From: Alicyclobacillus sp.
Lineage (GTDB): Bacteria; Bacillota; Bacilli; Alicyclobacillales; Alicyclobacillaceae
Direction of reading: 5' to 3'
Assembly: GCA_023511295.1 (NCBI GenBank)
Contig: JAIMBT010000032.1
Span: 1-32,133, forward strand
Length of the DNA: 32,133 bases
Positions 2,890-24,249 of the stretch are shown here, piece by piece. Under the pieces are notes generated by a model, which saw only the letters and a program-made list of their open reading frames with translations, made no database searches and had not been told where the DNA came from. Numbering within the stretch: the first letter of the stretch is position 1; every line of letters begins with the position of its first letter. Position numbers and translations under genes: made by a program.

Positions 2890-3558
2890 ATGCTCTACGT
2901 CGCGCTCGGTGACTCCGTCACGTACGGCTACTCTGCCAGCCGCAACGCCTATGCGTTTCCACAGCGGGTCGCACGGGCACTGTCGGGACGGCAAAAGGTG
3001 CACGTGTACCTGCAAGCGAAGCCGGGCTGGACGTCCAAACAACTCGCCAATTCACTTCGGAACGTTCAGGACTGCATCTGGGACGAGGCGAAATTGGTGA
3101 CGCTCATGGTGGGCGGCAACGACCTCCTGCGCGGGTCCCCATGGCTGCTCAACGGCCGCGACGGGTACCTGCTCGAACTGGTCGAAAAGTACCACGCGAA
3201 CCTGCTCCGCATTGTTGAGACGGCGAGACGCCCGGGGTCCCGCTTCGTCATCGCAACGCTCTACAACCCGTTCCCGAACTCCCCTGTCGCTGCAGAGTAC
3301 ACTGCCCGCATCAACGACGTCATCCGGCTGGTCGCCCGCCGTCAGCGGCTCGCCCTGGCCGCGGTGGACCGGGCGATGGACGGCCGGGAAGACGCCTACA
3401 TCGACGGGTACCGTCACGGGACCATCAAGGACATCAAGTTTCGCAACAACCCCGTCCACCCGAACGACGCGGGCCACCGTGCCATTGCCCGCGCGGTCTT
3501 GACCGCCTATCGCCGCGGACCGGCAGGACTGCGCCGCGCGGTCCGGCCGTCCACTTGA
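2890..3558 (+). CDS. SGNH/GDSL-type hydrolase with altered catalytic Asp position
   Basis: The 222-residue protein has the SGNH blocks in order: GDSVTYGY (nucleophile Ser9), a glycine in PGWTSKQL (block II), GGND (Asn77) and HPNDAGH (His190). No signal peptide or membrane segment is seen, so it is probably cytoplasmic; it could act on lipid or carbohydrate esters, but the substrate is unknown. The residue three before the catalytic His, normally Asp (DxxH), is Asn187 here (NPVHP), suggesting a Ser-His dyad or reduced activity. ATG 2890 is preceded by GGGGGCGG at suitable distance; a TTG at 2869 would add seven residues. The gene occupies the place just upstream of cdaA where many Bacillus genomes carry sigW-rsiW. 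Confidence 0.75.
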   Translation: MLYVALGDSVTYGYSASRNAYAFPQRVARALSGRQKVHVYLQAKPGWTSKQLANSLRNVQDCIWDEAKLVTLMVGGNDLLRGSPWLLNGRDGYLLELVEKYHANLLRIVETARRPGSRFVIATLYNPFPNSPVAAEYTARINDVIRLVARRQRLALAAVDRAMDGREDAYIDGYRHGTIKDIKFRNNPVHPNDAGHRAIARAVLTAYRRGPAGLRRAVRPST

Positions 3559-20685: not shown

Positions 20686-20725
20686 GCAAAACCGCCGCTT
20701 CCTGAGAAGGGGGCGGCGGTTTTGC
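20686..20725. terminator. Bidirectional intrinsic terminator
   Basis: GCAAAACCGCCGC (20686-20698) and GCGGCGGTTTTGC (20713-20725) form a perfect 13-bp stem with a 14-nt loop. The TTTT in each 3' arm gives a U-run in both directions, suiting the convergent wrbA and the reverse-strand ORF ending at 20810. Confidence 0.8.
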
Positions 20726-20809
20726 GTATGTCTGAAAGCTGTCAGGCGGGTCGCGCGTCCGGAACTCGGAGGCGGTGTGGGTGTTGCGACCGGATTGACC
20801 GAGCTCCTC

Positions 20810-21130
20810 TTATGGCTCGTCCTGCACACGCTCGGGCAGGTCCTCCAACCCGTGGATTTCAACGCGGTGGGGTCCTGTATCGGCACTGGGGCCGCTGTTC
20901 CAAGCGGTGGCTAGATGCCACGTGGATACGCTGTCCGGCGCCGACACGTCTTGCCAAGTGGTCACGCCGTCCTCCAACGGAATGTCGGCCGCAAGGTGCC
21001 CTCCCGTGGCCGGATTGAGCGGTGGGGCGGGTGTGGCTCGTTGTGCCGAGCTTGGAGCGGCCGGACGGTTCGGTGCTGGGCGTGCGGAACTGCGCTGCCG
21101 CGTAGGTCTCATACGGTGATGGTGCGCCAT
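20810..21130 (-). CDS. Unrecognised hydrophilic protein, 106 aa
   Basis: ATG 21130 has GGAGGG 6 nt upstream (GATGGAGGGATCTAC). The product begins MAHHHRMRPTRQRSSARPAP, a Pro/Ala/Arg-rich disordered stretch to about residue 45, then an acidic, Trp- and His-containing part (IPLEDGVTTWQDVSAPDSVS, WHLATAWNSGPSADTGPHRV, IHGLEDLPERVQDEP). No signal, membrane helix or cysteine is present. I do not recognise the family. Support for coding: the ribosome binding site, and a bidirectional terminator after its end that fits convergence with wrbA. Third-position G+C is lower than in the core genes, so this could be a less conserved or acquired gene. The rest of 20731-21310 shows no other supported gene. 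Confidence 0.5.
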   Translation of the reverse strand: MAHHHRMRPTRQRSSARPAPNRPAAPSSAQRATPAPPLNPATGGHLAADIPLEDGVTTWQDVSAPDSVSTWHLATAWNSGPSADTGPHRVEIHGLEDLPERVQDEP

Positions 21131-21259
21131 GTAGATCCCTCCATCCCATCCATCAGCTACATCGGGTCTTAGGATGGACCAATGTGGCGAGCGGCATGCC
21201 CTCGATTGGTGGCGGGATGGGCTCCGTGTCCACGCACGGTCAACCTCCATCGCCCGCGC

Positions 21260-21289
21260 TTGCAAAACGTAACAGTGTTATGTTACATT
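21260..21289 (+). promoter_or_regulatory. Promoter and inverted-repeat operator of the yhbD-like operon
   Basis: TTGCAA (21260-21265), 18 nt, TACATT (21284-21289) is a plausible sigma-A promoter. A perfect inverted repeat GTAACA-N6-TGTTAC (21269-21286) fills the spacer and runs into the -10. The first gene downstream encodes a MerR-type DNA-binding domain, so autoregulation from this site is likely. Confidence 0.6.
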
Positions 21290-21310
21290 CTATCCAGGTG
21301 GTGAACTGCG

Positions 21311-21931
21311 GTGGACTCAGACCTCATCTCAAAAAAGGAGTTGCTGGAACTGACCGGCATTTCCTACGGGCAGTTGTACCGATGGAAGCGGAAGAACCTG
21401 CTTCCGGAGGAGTGGTTCATCCGCAAGTCGACGTTCACGGGGCAGGAGACGTTCTTCCCGCGGGACAAGATGCTGGCGCGAATTGAGCGCATCATGCGGA
21501 TGAAGGACGACTTGTCGCTGGACGAGATTGCGGACCAGTTTTCGCCAAACCCGCACTGGCGCATACCGGGCACTGAGCTTGTTACGCGCAACATTGTTAC
21601 AGAAAAGGTCTGGGAGTTGTACCAGCAGTGCTTTCCGCGGTCGACGTCGCTGGCCTTTCCGGAGGTGCTCGCGGTGTACGTTCTCGACCAACTGCTGCGC
21701 AGCGGCGACGTCAACTTGCAGGAAGGTGAGATGGTGGTGCGGACGATGGTTGAAAACGCCGCTGACTTTGCCCACAAAGCGGCTGACCTGGTGGTGGGTC
21801 GCAAGTTGGGAATTGCGTGGTGTGCGCTGGTATCCACCGATGCCAAGCTCGCCTTCGACAATGAGACCAAAGTGATCTTACGACTCGGCGTCTCCAAGTA
21901 TGTGGAGGAATTGAAGCTGAAGGTGCTCTGA
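21311..21931 (+). CDS. yhbD: YhbD-like protein with N-terminal MerR-type helix-turn-helix (DUF4004)
   Basis: The 206-residue protein starts with a MerR-like winged helix: DLISKKELLELTGISYGQLY and RWKRKNLLPEEWF (residues 4-36), followed by the conserved RKSTFTGQETFFPRDKMLARI and DDLSLDEIADQFSPNP. The remaining 100 or so residues form a helical C-terminal region without a recognised effector motif. The N terminus closely resembles Bacillus YhbD, which precedes bactofilin genes in the yhbD-yhbE-yhbF operon linked to flagellar motility. Here too a bactofilin gene follows after 147 bp. GTG 21311 has AGGTGGTGA upstream. It probably regulates its own operon through the inverted repeat at 21269-21286; that is an inference. 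Confidence 0.85.
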   Translation: MDSDLISKKELLELTGISYGQLYRWKRKNLLPEEWFIRKSTFTGQETFFPRDKMLARIERIMRMKDDLSLDEIADQFSPNPHWRIPGTELVTRNIVTEKVWELYQQCFPRSTSLAFPEVLAVYVLDQLLRSGDVNLQEGEMVVRTMVENAADFAHKAADLVVGRKLGIAWCALVSTDAKLAFDNETKVILRLGVSKYVEELKLKVL

Positions 21932-22078
21932 GGTGAGACCCTCGGGTGTCTGGTCGCGGAATGTGGCGGGATGTGCGGCGAATCGACAGGGATGGACCGA
22001 CTGGTCAGATCTCCGATGTGCGCGGGCTGGGGGTAGACGTGCGGCGGAGGCGCTGGAGACGGAGAATGGAGGATGGGT

Positions 22079-22708
22079 GTGAACGGACAGGTGCAGCGAA
22101 AGTCGAACATTGTCATTCACGGGACGGGCAGTAGTCACGGCGGTGTCGTGGACGTGGTGCGGGTGCATGGCGTCGGCACGGTCGGGGACGACCTCGACTG
22201 CCGGGAGATGCACGTTCATGGGCAGGCGCGATTCAACGGTGCCGTCAAGGCCGAGGTCGGAAAGGTGCATGGGACCTGTGATGTGGATGGGTCCATCCAG
22301 GCCGAGGAATTGGTGGTCAACGGTCAGCTCACGGTTCACGGCGACTGTAGCGCAGAGACGTTTCGCGTCCGCGGCGCCTTCCGGATTGATGGGCTGCTCA
22401 ACGGAGACCGGATTGAATTGACGCAGTTCGGCCCGAGTTTCGCGAAGGAGATTGGCGGGGAGTCCATCACGGTCCGCCACGAGAAGGTCTTCTTCTTCAG
22501 CAAGCACAAGTCTCTGCACGCAGACGTGATTGAAGGCGACGACATCTCGCTTGAGTATACCAAGGCGAAGGTGGTGCGAGGCAACCGGATTGAGATTGGC
22601 CGCGGCTGTGAGGTCCAGTTGGTGGAGTACAGCGAGTCGTTCAAGCAAGCGAAAGACGCGGTTGTCGTCGAGCAGCGCCGCTCGACGAAAGGAGGAGGCC
22701 AGGGATGA
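22079..22708 (+). CDS. Bactofilin-like polymer-forming protein
   Basis: The 209-residue protein has a central right-handed beta-helix pattern with repeats of about 17-20 residues: DVVRVHGVGTVGDDLDCREMHVHG, QARFNGAVKAEVGKVHG, TCDVDGSIQAEELVVNG, QLTVHGDCSAETFRVRG, AFRIDGLLNGDRIEL, the recurring V-x-G or V-H-G turns being typical of bactofilins (DUF583). Bactofilins form cytoskeletal filaments without nucleotide. The later part (HADVIEGDDISLEYTKAKVV-RGNRIEIG) resembles the YhbE/YhbF type of Bacillus, involved in flagellar assembly. Only one copy is present here instead of two. GTG 22079 with GGAGG 6 nt upstream is preferred over ATG 22073, which touches that site. Its stop overlaps the next start (ATGA). 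Confidence 0.82.
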   Translation: MNGQVQRKSNIVIHGTGSSHGGVVDVVRVHGVGTVGDDLDCREMHVHGQARFNGAVKAEVGKVHGTCDVDGSIQAEELVVNGQLTVHGDCSAETFRVRGAFRIDGLLNGDRIELTQFGPSFAKEIGGESITVRHEKVFFFSKHKSLHADVIEGDDISLEYTKAKVVRGNRIEIGRGCEVQLVEYSESFKQAKDAVVVEQRRSTKGGGQG

Positions 22709-24249
22709 ACCCATCTGCGCAGTCGTCGCCGGAACAGCGGCAAACGCGGGTCGGCGTGGTGGTGGCCGGTCTGCTGCTCGGCATTTTTGTATCCGCGATG
22801 GACAACACTGTCGTCTCCACCGCGACCGGTAACATTGTGTCGCACCTCGGTGGGGTGGATAAAATTGTCTGGATCACGGCCGCCTACTTGATGACGGAAA
22901 TGTCGGGGATGCCCATCTTCGGCAAGCTGTCCGACATGTATGGTCGAAAGCGGTTCTTCGTATTCGGCCTGGCGACCTTTTTGCTCGGATCCATCCTCTG
23001 CGGCACTGCGCAGAACATGGACCAGCTGGCACTCTATCGCGCCATTCAGGGAATTGGCGGCGGGGCGTTGATGCCGATTGCCTTCACCATCATCTTCGAT
23101 GTCGTGCCGCGTGAGCGGGCGGGACGCTTCTCCGGCATGTTTGGCGGTGTGTTCGGCGTCGCCAGTATCTTCGGTCCGCTCATCGGGTCCTTTATCACGG
23201 ACCACATCGGCTGGCGGTATGTCTTCTACATCAACGTGCCGATTGGGATTGTCACGCTGCTGCTGGTTGCGACGTCCTACCACGAATCCACAGTGCATCA
23301 GCGTCAGCGGATTGACTGGTGGGGTGTGGTGACCCTGGTGTTGGCGATTGTCAGTCTGACGTTCGCACTCGAGTTCGGCGGCGCGCAGTACGCTTGGGGT
23401 TCTCCGCAGATTGTGGGAGGATTCCTCGTTGCGGCCATCCTCTTCGCCTGCTTTGTGATTGCGGAGACGCGAGCCGCAGAGCCGATTGTCTCGTTTGCGA
23501 TGTTTCGCAACCGCGTGTTCGCTGTGAGCAACCTTGTCGGCATCTTCAGCGGGGCTGCGTACGTGGTGGCGGTGGTGTACATTCCCATCTATATCCAGGG
23601 CGTCAAAGGCGGGTCTGCCATCAACGCAGGGATGGAGTTGTTGCCGATGATGCTCGGCTCTTCCGTTGCCGCGCCCATCGGCAGCATTCTCGCGAGCAAG
23701 GTTCCGTACCGCAATATCCTCGCGGGGTCTGGCCTGGTCCTCGCTGGTGGTATCGCGCTCCTCGGCGGGCTGACGGTCCACACGACAGATCTGCAGGTGG
23801 TGCTCGACATGGCGATTGTCGGCATCGGCATCGGGCCGTCGTTCTCCATCCTCGGCATGGCCGCGATGGCGGAGTTCGACGTGCGCCAGCGGGGTTCGGC
23901 GAGCTCGACGAACTCATTCCTGCGCGAGCTCGGCATGACCGTCGGGATTGTCGTGTTCGGCGTGATTCAGAAAGATGCCTTCCACAGCCAATTGGCCGGT
24001 TCGCTGGCGGGCATGGGCCCGGGAGTGCAGCGGTTGGCCAACTTGGACCCGCACGCCATGCTCGCTCCGGCGACACGTCATCAGATTCCACCGTTTCTCC
24101 TCGACAGACTGTCCCAGGCGATGTCAGACTCCATCGCGCACGCCATGTTGTGGGACGTCGTCCCTGCAGTGCTCGCCCTCGTGGTCACGCTTTGGATGGG
24201 CAGCCGTCGGTTTCAAGGCATGTCGGTGGGGGCTGCGGAGTCGCGCTAA
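22705..24249 (+). CDS. DHA2-family multidrug efflux MFS transporter
   Basis: The 514-residue membrane protein has 14 predicted helices, as in the EmrB/QacA (DHA2) group. Visible signatures are SAMDNTVVSTATGNI in helix 1 (the D-x-T-V-V-x-x-A motif), GKLSDMYGRKRFF (loop motif A), RAIQGIGGGALMPIAFTIIFDVVPRERAGR and GPLIGSFITDHIGWRYVFYINVPIG (antiporter motif C region). It likely exports hydrophobic or cationic drugs against protons; substrate is unknown. ATG 22705 overlaps the bactofilin stop by 4 bp and has AAAGGAGGAGG upstream, so it is translationally coupled to the bactofilin. A drug pump in this operon is an unusual partner for a cytoskeletal gene. Confidence 0.92.
   Translation: MNPSAQSSPEQRQTRVGVVVAGLLLGIFVSAMDNTVVSTATGNIVSHLGGVDKIVWITAAYLMTEMSGMPIFGKLSDMYGRKRFFVFGLATFLLGSILCGTAQNMDQLALYRAIQGIGGGALMPIAFTIIFDVVPRERAGRFSGMFGGVFGVASIFGPLIGSFITDHIGWRYVFYINVPIGIVTLLLVATSYHESTVHQRQRIDWWGVVTLVLAIVSLTFALEFGGAQYAWGSPQIVGGFLVAAILFACFVIAETRAAEPIVSFAMFRNRVFAVSNLVGIFSGAAYVVAVVYIPIYIQGVKGGSAINAGMELLPMMLGSSVAAPIGSILASKVPYRNILAGSGLVLAGGIALLGGLTVHTTDLQVVLDMAIVGIGIGPSFSILGMAAMAEFDVRQRGSASSTNSFLRELGMTVGIVVFGVIQKDAFHSQLAGSLAGMGPGVQRLANLDPHAMLAPATRHQIPPFLLDRLSQAMSDSIAHAMLWDVVPAVLALVVTLWMGSRRFQGMSVGAAESR

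Follow-up and report, generated by a model that had tools for sequence, protein, structure and literature searches.

A conserved palindrome at the yhbD promoter, with a second copy in the operon, as candidate operator of the DUF4004 protein YhbD

Which protein recognizes the inverted repeat that fills the promoter of yhbD, and would it switch this promoter on or keep it shut? The question is raised by the sequence of the window (the whole stretch of DNA analysed, a complete contig of 32,133 nucleotides from a 3.43 Mb Alicyclobacillus sp. genome), in which the repeat precedes yhbD, a bactofilin gene and the gene of an EmrB-type efflux pump. The best model, which we consider probable, is autorepression of the yhbD-bactofilin(-EmrB pump) operon from two operators by YhbD, in this view a CvkR-like protein with a MerR fold. 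A YhbD dimer would bind the sequence RTAACA-n-TGTTAY (operator O1) between the −35 and the extended −10 elements, keeping RNA polymerase off an otherwise normal promoter with a 17–18 bp spacer. YhbD would thereby repress its own operon, composed of yhbD, one or two bactofilin genes and often an EmrB-type efflux pump gene. A second operator (O2) would strengthen repression, either by bridging to O1 with formation of a DNA loop or by blocking elongation, and a ligand of the YhbD C-terminal domain would relieve it. The features of the window that enter the argument are the following:

21260–21265, + strand: −35-like hexamer TTGCAA, recognized by sequence; a TTtacA/TTGnnn element occupies the same place in other genera
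21269–21281, + strand: O1 core GTAACA-G-TGTTAT, centre at 21275; near-invariant across genera, candidate YhbD site
21269–21286, + strand: repeat GTAACA-N6-TGTTAC as drawn in the earlier note; its right arm overlaps the extended −10
21281–21289, + strand: extended −10, TGT-TACATT, with the hexamer TACATT at 21284–21289
21311–21931, + strand: yhbD (PF13171/DUF4004), 206 aa, GTG start; predicted MerR-like winged helix-turn-helix (wHTH) at aa 4–78 and predicted CvkR-like part at aa 80–206
21588–21600, + strand: O2, in-gene core GCAACA-T-TGTTAC, centre at 21594, in yhbD codons 93–97 and 319 bp from O1
22073–22708, + strand: bactofilin (PF04519; Pfam), second gene of the operon
22705–24249, + strand: EmrB-type (DHA2) MFS efflux transporter (Pfam, NCBIfam); its start overlaps the bactofilin stop

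The promoter site and its conservation

The perfect repeat GTAACA-N6-TGTTAC that the earlier note had described, reaching the −10 element, is present in the sequence (GTAACAGTGTTATGTTAC, positions 21269–21286), 24 bp upstream of the yhbD GTG start. The spacer from TTGCAA to TACATT is 18 bp long and the end of the repeat falls within the −10-like hexamer. A promoter scan of positions 20700–23500 with a threshold of 9/12 yielded no site; counted by hand, the yhbD promoter reaches 8/12. The repeat has a single perfect match in its own genome, besides three matches with one mismatch, one of which is found upstream of a second yhbD copy. Perfect 6-N6-6 inverted repeats occur 16 times in the window compared to a mean of 12.1 (range 6–22) in 30 dinucleotide shuffles. 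The bare palindrome is not above chance and was rejected as evidence, so that its significance comes solely from cross-genome conservation.

Two observations concern the surroundings of the gene in this genome. The second yhbD copy, which has a promoter site of its own, is part of a diverged flavodoxin–yhbD–bactofilin segment on another contig (C13:5000–12000; L002, L114). A minus-strand reading frame (20810–21265), divergent from yhbD in the window, may be a small gene; a similar frame precedes the second copy (L002, 1522–1977) and MAHHHR... is found in both frames.

Comparison of yhbD homologues, which the earlier note had named as the observation that could refute its site, supported it: the sequence GTAACAnTGTTATGTTAy is near-invariant upstream of yhbD (DUF4004) in 43 of the 45 genera that have a yhbD locus. 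PF13171 was identified in 30/41 genomes of the family. All 30 loci (one per genome) carry the site with two mismatches or fewer in its 12 arm bases, at most 73 nt from the start of the profile match in 29 of them and 390 nt upstream in L016. The gene was absent from the 18 genomes of the other family of the order. At the level of the class, to which B. subtilis belongs, yhbD was found in 101 of 299 sampled genomes, and 104 of 109 loci score at least 15/19 against ACGTAACAnTGTTATGTTAY. The gene is broken in one of the other five (L108), while four (L109, L110, L112, L113) carry a shorter 6-1-6 core. The table of 43 genera, which spans 20 families, uses one of the 104 loci per genus and leaves out the five loci scoring below 15/19; it is therefore selected for similarity. 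Its motif GTAACA-n-TGTTATGTTA has 16 fixed positions with 1.7–2.2 bits each. The central base has 0.4 bits and the flanks, excluding the −35, the −10 and the ribosome-binding site, have at most about 0.25 bits.

In another collection, composed of named loci, 78/80 have no more than two mismatches to GTAACAnTGTTATGTTAC. The exceptions are L143 (Clostridium sp. KNHs214) and L189 (a metagenome-assembled genome, MAG), with four mismatches each. The genus of B. subtilis has yhbD in 25 of 44 genomes, and the site is exact in all 25 loci. The B. subtilis locus (L208) contains all six published yhbD primers, the site being surrounded by TTAACA-17-TACAAT, and the only B. subtilis match within two mismatches is the one upstream of yhbD. 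The sets of 30 family loci, 109 loci, 80 named loci and 25 loci of the B. subtilis genus overlap and the genomes are related, so the counts are not independent events. Five MAGs with a Bacteroidetes title carry yhbD (L139, L140, L161, L164, L189), four of them with at most one mismatch in the promoter site; these are either mislabelled bins or cases of horizontal transfer.

The gene content behind the site was surveyed in the named loci by similarity searches with the proteins of the window, with Pfam confirmation for individual frames only. Bactofilin-like frames are found downstream of yhbD in 78/80 (two frames in 66 loci, one in 10, three in 2), and 42/80 have, behind the bactofilins, an MFS frame similar to the pump of the window. 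At L121 a bactofilin gene stands between the site and yhbD, and a bactofilin-like gene follows yhbD, so that the site marks the head of the operon. The Clostridium gene at L143, which lacks the site and has no bactofilin behind it, directly follows two ABC-2 permease-like genes as judged by eye, and its YhbD may have come to control a transporter instead. In B. subtilis, passages of PMC4627819 describe yhbDEF as a putative operon and BacEF as essential for motility; motility effects of BacEF are described as strain-dependent in passages of PMC9103452.

Operator shape and the second core copy

The consensus TTTACA-ACGTAACAnTGTTATGT-TACAnT contains two symmetry axes. Over 10 consensus pairs the one-base axis scores 8 and the N6 axis 7, so symmetry by itself hardly decides between them; tandem and divergent sites do. 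Extra upstream copies found in tandem (L094 and L103–L106), spaced by 25–34 bp, keep (A/T)AACAATGTT without the TGTTAC that follows it at the promoter. The divergent group L109–L113 carries RTAACA-n-TGTTAC and the N6 arrangement is gone. In addition, the TGTTAyAnT run corresponds to an extended −10, whose TG is present in 42 of the 43 genera. The one-base axis GTAACA-n-TGTTAT was chosen on account of the tandem copies, the divergent group and the extended −10. Sequence comparison thus points to RTAACA-n-TGTTAY, with a single central base, as the operator core, and assigns the right arm TGTTAC of the N6 repeat largely to the extended −10 of the promoter. The axis originally drawn for the palindrome is abandoned here.

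GlnR and TnrA, the nitrogen regulators of Bacilli, resemble YhbD in having a MerR-fold wHTH and a palindrome of the TGT/ACA type. The GlnR box is TGTNA-N7-TNACA. In the YhbD consensus, by contrast, inspection finds the arms in the opposite order, RTAACA-n-TGTTAY, with one central base.

A second copy of the core is kept at these loci, mostly in yhbD codons 93–97 and otherwise elsewhere in the operon. At L108, the coding sequence of the broken yhbD itself matched the core. In the window, O2 has a C instead of A/T at one flank base. The codons of N94-I95-V96 that form the in-gene copy are nearly fixed (AAC in 134/136, ATT in 152/166, GTT in 146/166); in all other columns among the 109 that are conserved and codon-degenerate, the share of the top codon is at most 0.784. 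Of 133 genes with N-I-V, 132 use AAC ATT GTT, compared to 4.9 expected from their own codon usage, a ratio that becomes 121/122 when only distinct genes are counted. This constraint holds in 25/25 genera belonging to 13 families, with gene GC ranging from 0.29 to 0.59. The pattern (A/T)AACAnTGTT(A/T) is found inside 133 of 188 genes versus a mean of 5.7 in 20 synonymous shuffles.

The sets of 188 and of 213 loci, whose site counts leave out L108 (genome G171), include duplicate genes, whose removal reduces the latter to 197. Two or more cores are found in 171 of these 197 distinct loci. The second core lies in codons 93–97 in 122 loci and near codon 152 in nine loci of genus g2. Eleven loci carry at least two upstream copies, and in 24 the second core is at 2000–2100 nt. 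Three have it at 640–1900 nt, within the bactofilin region for L166 and L172 and behind the final bactofilin gene for L206, and two at other places. The 26 loci with fewer than two exact cores (24 with one, 2 with none) are covered over less than 2.2 kb in 17 cases and over 3.0–4.6 kb in nine. A late core copy is present in 25/25 loci of the B. subtilis genus. It stands directly behind a TAA codon in L206, L208 and L216 and a few bases past the end of the frame in L221; in B. subtilis L208 it starts at base 3557, the yhbF stop ending at 3556. The distance between the O1 and O2 centres is 320–328 bp in 113/132 loci, with no helical phasing beyond that of the fixed gene layout, and no base covariation was seen between the outer flanks of O2.

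In systems of the lac/gal type, the operator at the promoter is paired with another that lies some hundred bp downstream, within a structural gene. The layout of a promoter operator plus an in-gene operator is the same here, but the proteins are unrelated, and O2 is mostly located in the regulator's own gene at a place that varies by lineage.

The possibility that O2 is an elongation roadblock or a decoy, two operators acting without a loop, survives best among the alternatives, although we regard it as doubtful. Most O2 copies lie within the transcribed region, and the spacing of the tandem upstream sites suits dimers bound side by side. A roadblock is less easily reconciled with genus Bacillus, where O2 comes after the last bactofilin gene and an elongation block would not spare the genes of the operon. 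A further reading, in our opinion rather improbable, takes O1 for the sole operator and AAC ATT GTT for an RNA signal, a translation feature or an internal promoter whose likeness to the core is accidental. The in-gene copy does lie on conserved residues (R-N-I-V) and has neither the extended right part nor covarying outer flanks, which speaks for this reading. Against it, the 9-mer core turns up elsewhere when it is missing at codons 93–97: around codon 152 in the g2 genes, immediately behind the final bactofilin gene in genus Bacillus, or in the form of additional copies upstream. Furthermore, this palindrome is found outside the promoter in 181/213 loci, compared to 2–34/213 for each of ten control palindromes.

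Promoter geometry and the YhbD protein

The earlier note pictured YhbD as a MerR regulator acting from a spacer of suitable length. The spacer could be measured in 30 of the 43 genera, those with a −35 of at least 4/6, and is 17 bp in 26 of them and 18 bp in 4, with no ties. The 13 genera without a clear −35 were left out of this count; if they are included and ties are broken to 17 bp, the figures are 35 genera with 17 bp and 8 with 18 bp. Classical MerR targets have a 19–20 bp spacer and their activation is abolished by shortening it, according to passages of PMC9909328. In genus g89 (3/3 loci) the promoter reads TTGAC(A/G)-17-TAMCAT and the operator centre lies 12–13 nt past its −10, which, as read from the sequence, is the position of a repressor. 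Spacers of 17–18 bp and the downstream operator of g89 therefore favour occlusion, that is, steric self-repression.

Passages of PMC12837462 report that deletion of B. subtilis yhbD makes the inhibition zone of an actinomycete smaller by only 0.2 cm and has no effect with duramycin or culture supernatant. The drug link is consequently weak, and the deletion phenotype is weakly compatible with repression. A late yhbD nonsense mutation is reported there in a resistant strain that also carries pssA and mdtR mutations, and its authors suggest that YhbD may regulate the operon.

YhbD matches the PF13171 profile with 261.3 bits over aa 4–199 (gathering threshold 27). Its AlphaFold model has a mean pLDDT of 87.4; the C-terminal 127 residues modelled alone have a pLDDT of 94.6. 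The model of aa 4–78 superimposes on SoxR (2zhg_A) with Z 10.1 and rmsd 1.6 over 68 aligned residues; other matches of MerR fold are S. aureus GlnR (Z 9.6) and Mta (Z 9.5). The MerR-type domain assigned to the protein in the earlier note therefore stands as a predicted N-terminal wHTH fold, not as a Pfam assignment, as the Pfam MerR profiles stay below cut-off on the window protein (best MerR_2, 17 bits versus 29). The NCBIfam collection gave no family for YhbD or for the bactofilin.

A classical MerR switch, seated in the spacer and activating by DNA distortion upon ligand binding, is unlikely in our estimate. YhbD does share with the activators MerR, CueR, SoxR, BmrR and Mta an operator between −35 and −10 and, by structure prediction, the wHTH (Z 8–10 for SoxR, Mta, BmrR and CueR). 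It differs from them in promoter spacers that, where readable, are already near optimal, and in a short one-base-centred core whose position is not fixed. It may also differ in the long C-terminal antiparallel dimerisation helix of that family, as the monomer model has short helices after aa 78 and no long helix following the wHTH.

For the autorepression model the closest known system is CvkR (Alr3614, repressor of type V-K CAST, PDB 7xn2). Its operator AnnACATnATGTnnT is a 15-nt repeat around one spacer base, and altering the length of this one-base spacer nearly abolishes binding (passages of PMC9938897). The predicted YhbD aa 80–206 align with nearly the whole of CvkR (7xn2, 3–146), with 123 residues, Z 9.0, rmsd 3.5 and 12% identity, followed by an entry at Z 4.6 and by several MerR wHTHs at Z 3–4. 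This resemblance, obtained with one aligner at a middling Z and low identity, is a lead that would make aa 80–206 a second, degenerate wHTH followed by a CvkR-like beta dimerisation domain. It is treated as a lead because Foldseek returned no match at E ≤ 0.001 for either the full-length or the C-terminal model; sequence searches of the PDB with YhbD found nothing, CvkR included. The two proteins would have in common the MerR wHTH and a palindromic operator built around a single base at promoter elements. They differ by the additional N-terminal wHTH that YhbD has before its CvkR-like part and by its occurrence in Bacilli with other target genes, another half-site and a second operator copy.

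Co-occurrence with yhbD and candidate targets elsewhere

Exact matches to the element GTAACAnTGTTATGTTAY number 91 and are spread over 85 of the 299 genomes, each of which has yhbD. The element is thus found in 85 of the 101 genomes with the gene and in none of the 198 without it, while a reversed control pattern occurs once across the 299 genomes. In the 16 remaining yhbD genomes the sites are mismatched or of the 6-1-6 type, or else the gene is broken (G171, G249). Bactofilin matches at E ≤ 0.001 are found in at least 76 of the 198 genomes that lack yhbD (23 of them strong), none of which has the site. These bactofilin counts are lower bounds, since the search gave 0 matches for the window's own bactofilin, which the Pfam profile finds; 114 of the 171 matching genomes are above the Pfam cut-off. 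From this distribution we infer that the site is the target of YhbD, and the owner proposed in the earlier note is very likely the right one.

Judged by their coordinates, three of the 91 exact matches lie apart from any yhbD gene or remnant. The first (L120, G140:C32:154500–159000) is a second exact site of its genome, away from yhbD, within a TTTACA/TACATT promoter that precedes a bactofilin-like gene (23.8 bits, below the Pfam 27.9) and an MFS pump gene; judged from its sequence, this bactofilin-pump operon is likely a target in trans. The second (L118, G016:C9:65500–70000) lies 267 nt upstream of the genes for a DrrA-like ABC exporter and its permease, and another site with two mismatches is found upstream of the same pair. 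The third (L119, about 2101–2153, G136:C4) consists of two operator-like cores separated by 36 bp, for which no target was recognised; a stretch of 82 residues beside them had no Pfam match. A search for a larger regulon in 62 genomes, allowing two mismatches, gave by eye about as many matches not linked to yhbD as the reversed-pattern control. Two extra targets considered in the genome of the window, C13:23217 and C42:51549, which have one mismatch to a loose pattern, were rejected, as a search for TAACAnTGTTATGTTA that allowed three mismatches did not return them.

Remnant yhbD copies that keep the exact promoter site and the in-gene core are found in L115 (G023:C45) and L116 (G022:C11). The sequence ATAACTTTGTTATGTTAT, with 5 copies in G227 and 8 in G244, resembles another dispersed repeat of these genomes.

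Control of the yhbD-bactofilin operon by a regulator other than YhbD would be allowed by promoter sites, which alone cannot name their binder, but is improbable, given the absence of the site from the genomes without yhbD even where a bactofilin is present, its persistence beside yhbD in Geobacillus proteiniphilus (L195), whose 4.6 kb of covered sequence contain no bactofilin behind the gene, and the variant operators of L109–L113, few and related genomes, which accompany variant wHTH wing residues (KQATT or KQSAS versus RKSTF elsewhere) as expected if YhbD is the binder.

A full-text search of a paper collection found neither the motif nor DUF4004, whereas three papers contained yhbD together with Bacillus. 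Among the matches listed by further searches, none linked bactofilin with EmrB, none dealt by title with MerR proteins having looping or intragenic operators, and none retrieved for bactofilin regulators named a bactofilin. In the main text of PMC5045206, which treats MerR-DNA correlations, the strings yhbD, DUF4004, TAACA and TGTTA do not occur.

For a protein family without an assigned function that occurs in roughly one in three of the genomes sampled from the class, autorepression by YhbD would supply a DNA target, a partner operon and a mechanism amenable to experiment. The bactofilin cytoskeleton, which in B. subtilis is linked to flagella, would thereby gain a dedicated regulator and, in many cases, a connection with a multidrug-type pump. 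The codon constraint would represent a regulatory site imposed on coding sequence and kept across genes of 29–59% GC. Tentatively, and with somewhat less than even confidence, YhbD may represent a second branch among the CvkR-like MerR repressors, set apart by an additional wHTH and by paired operators, one of them written into its own coding sequence by fixed synonymous codons. Such a repressor would keep a bactofilin and EmrB-pump operon silent as long as no amphiphilic or cell-envelope signal is received, and in some genomes it may also control bactofilin-pump or ABC-exporter operons elsewhere.
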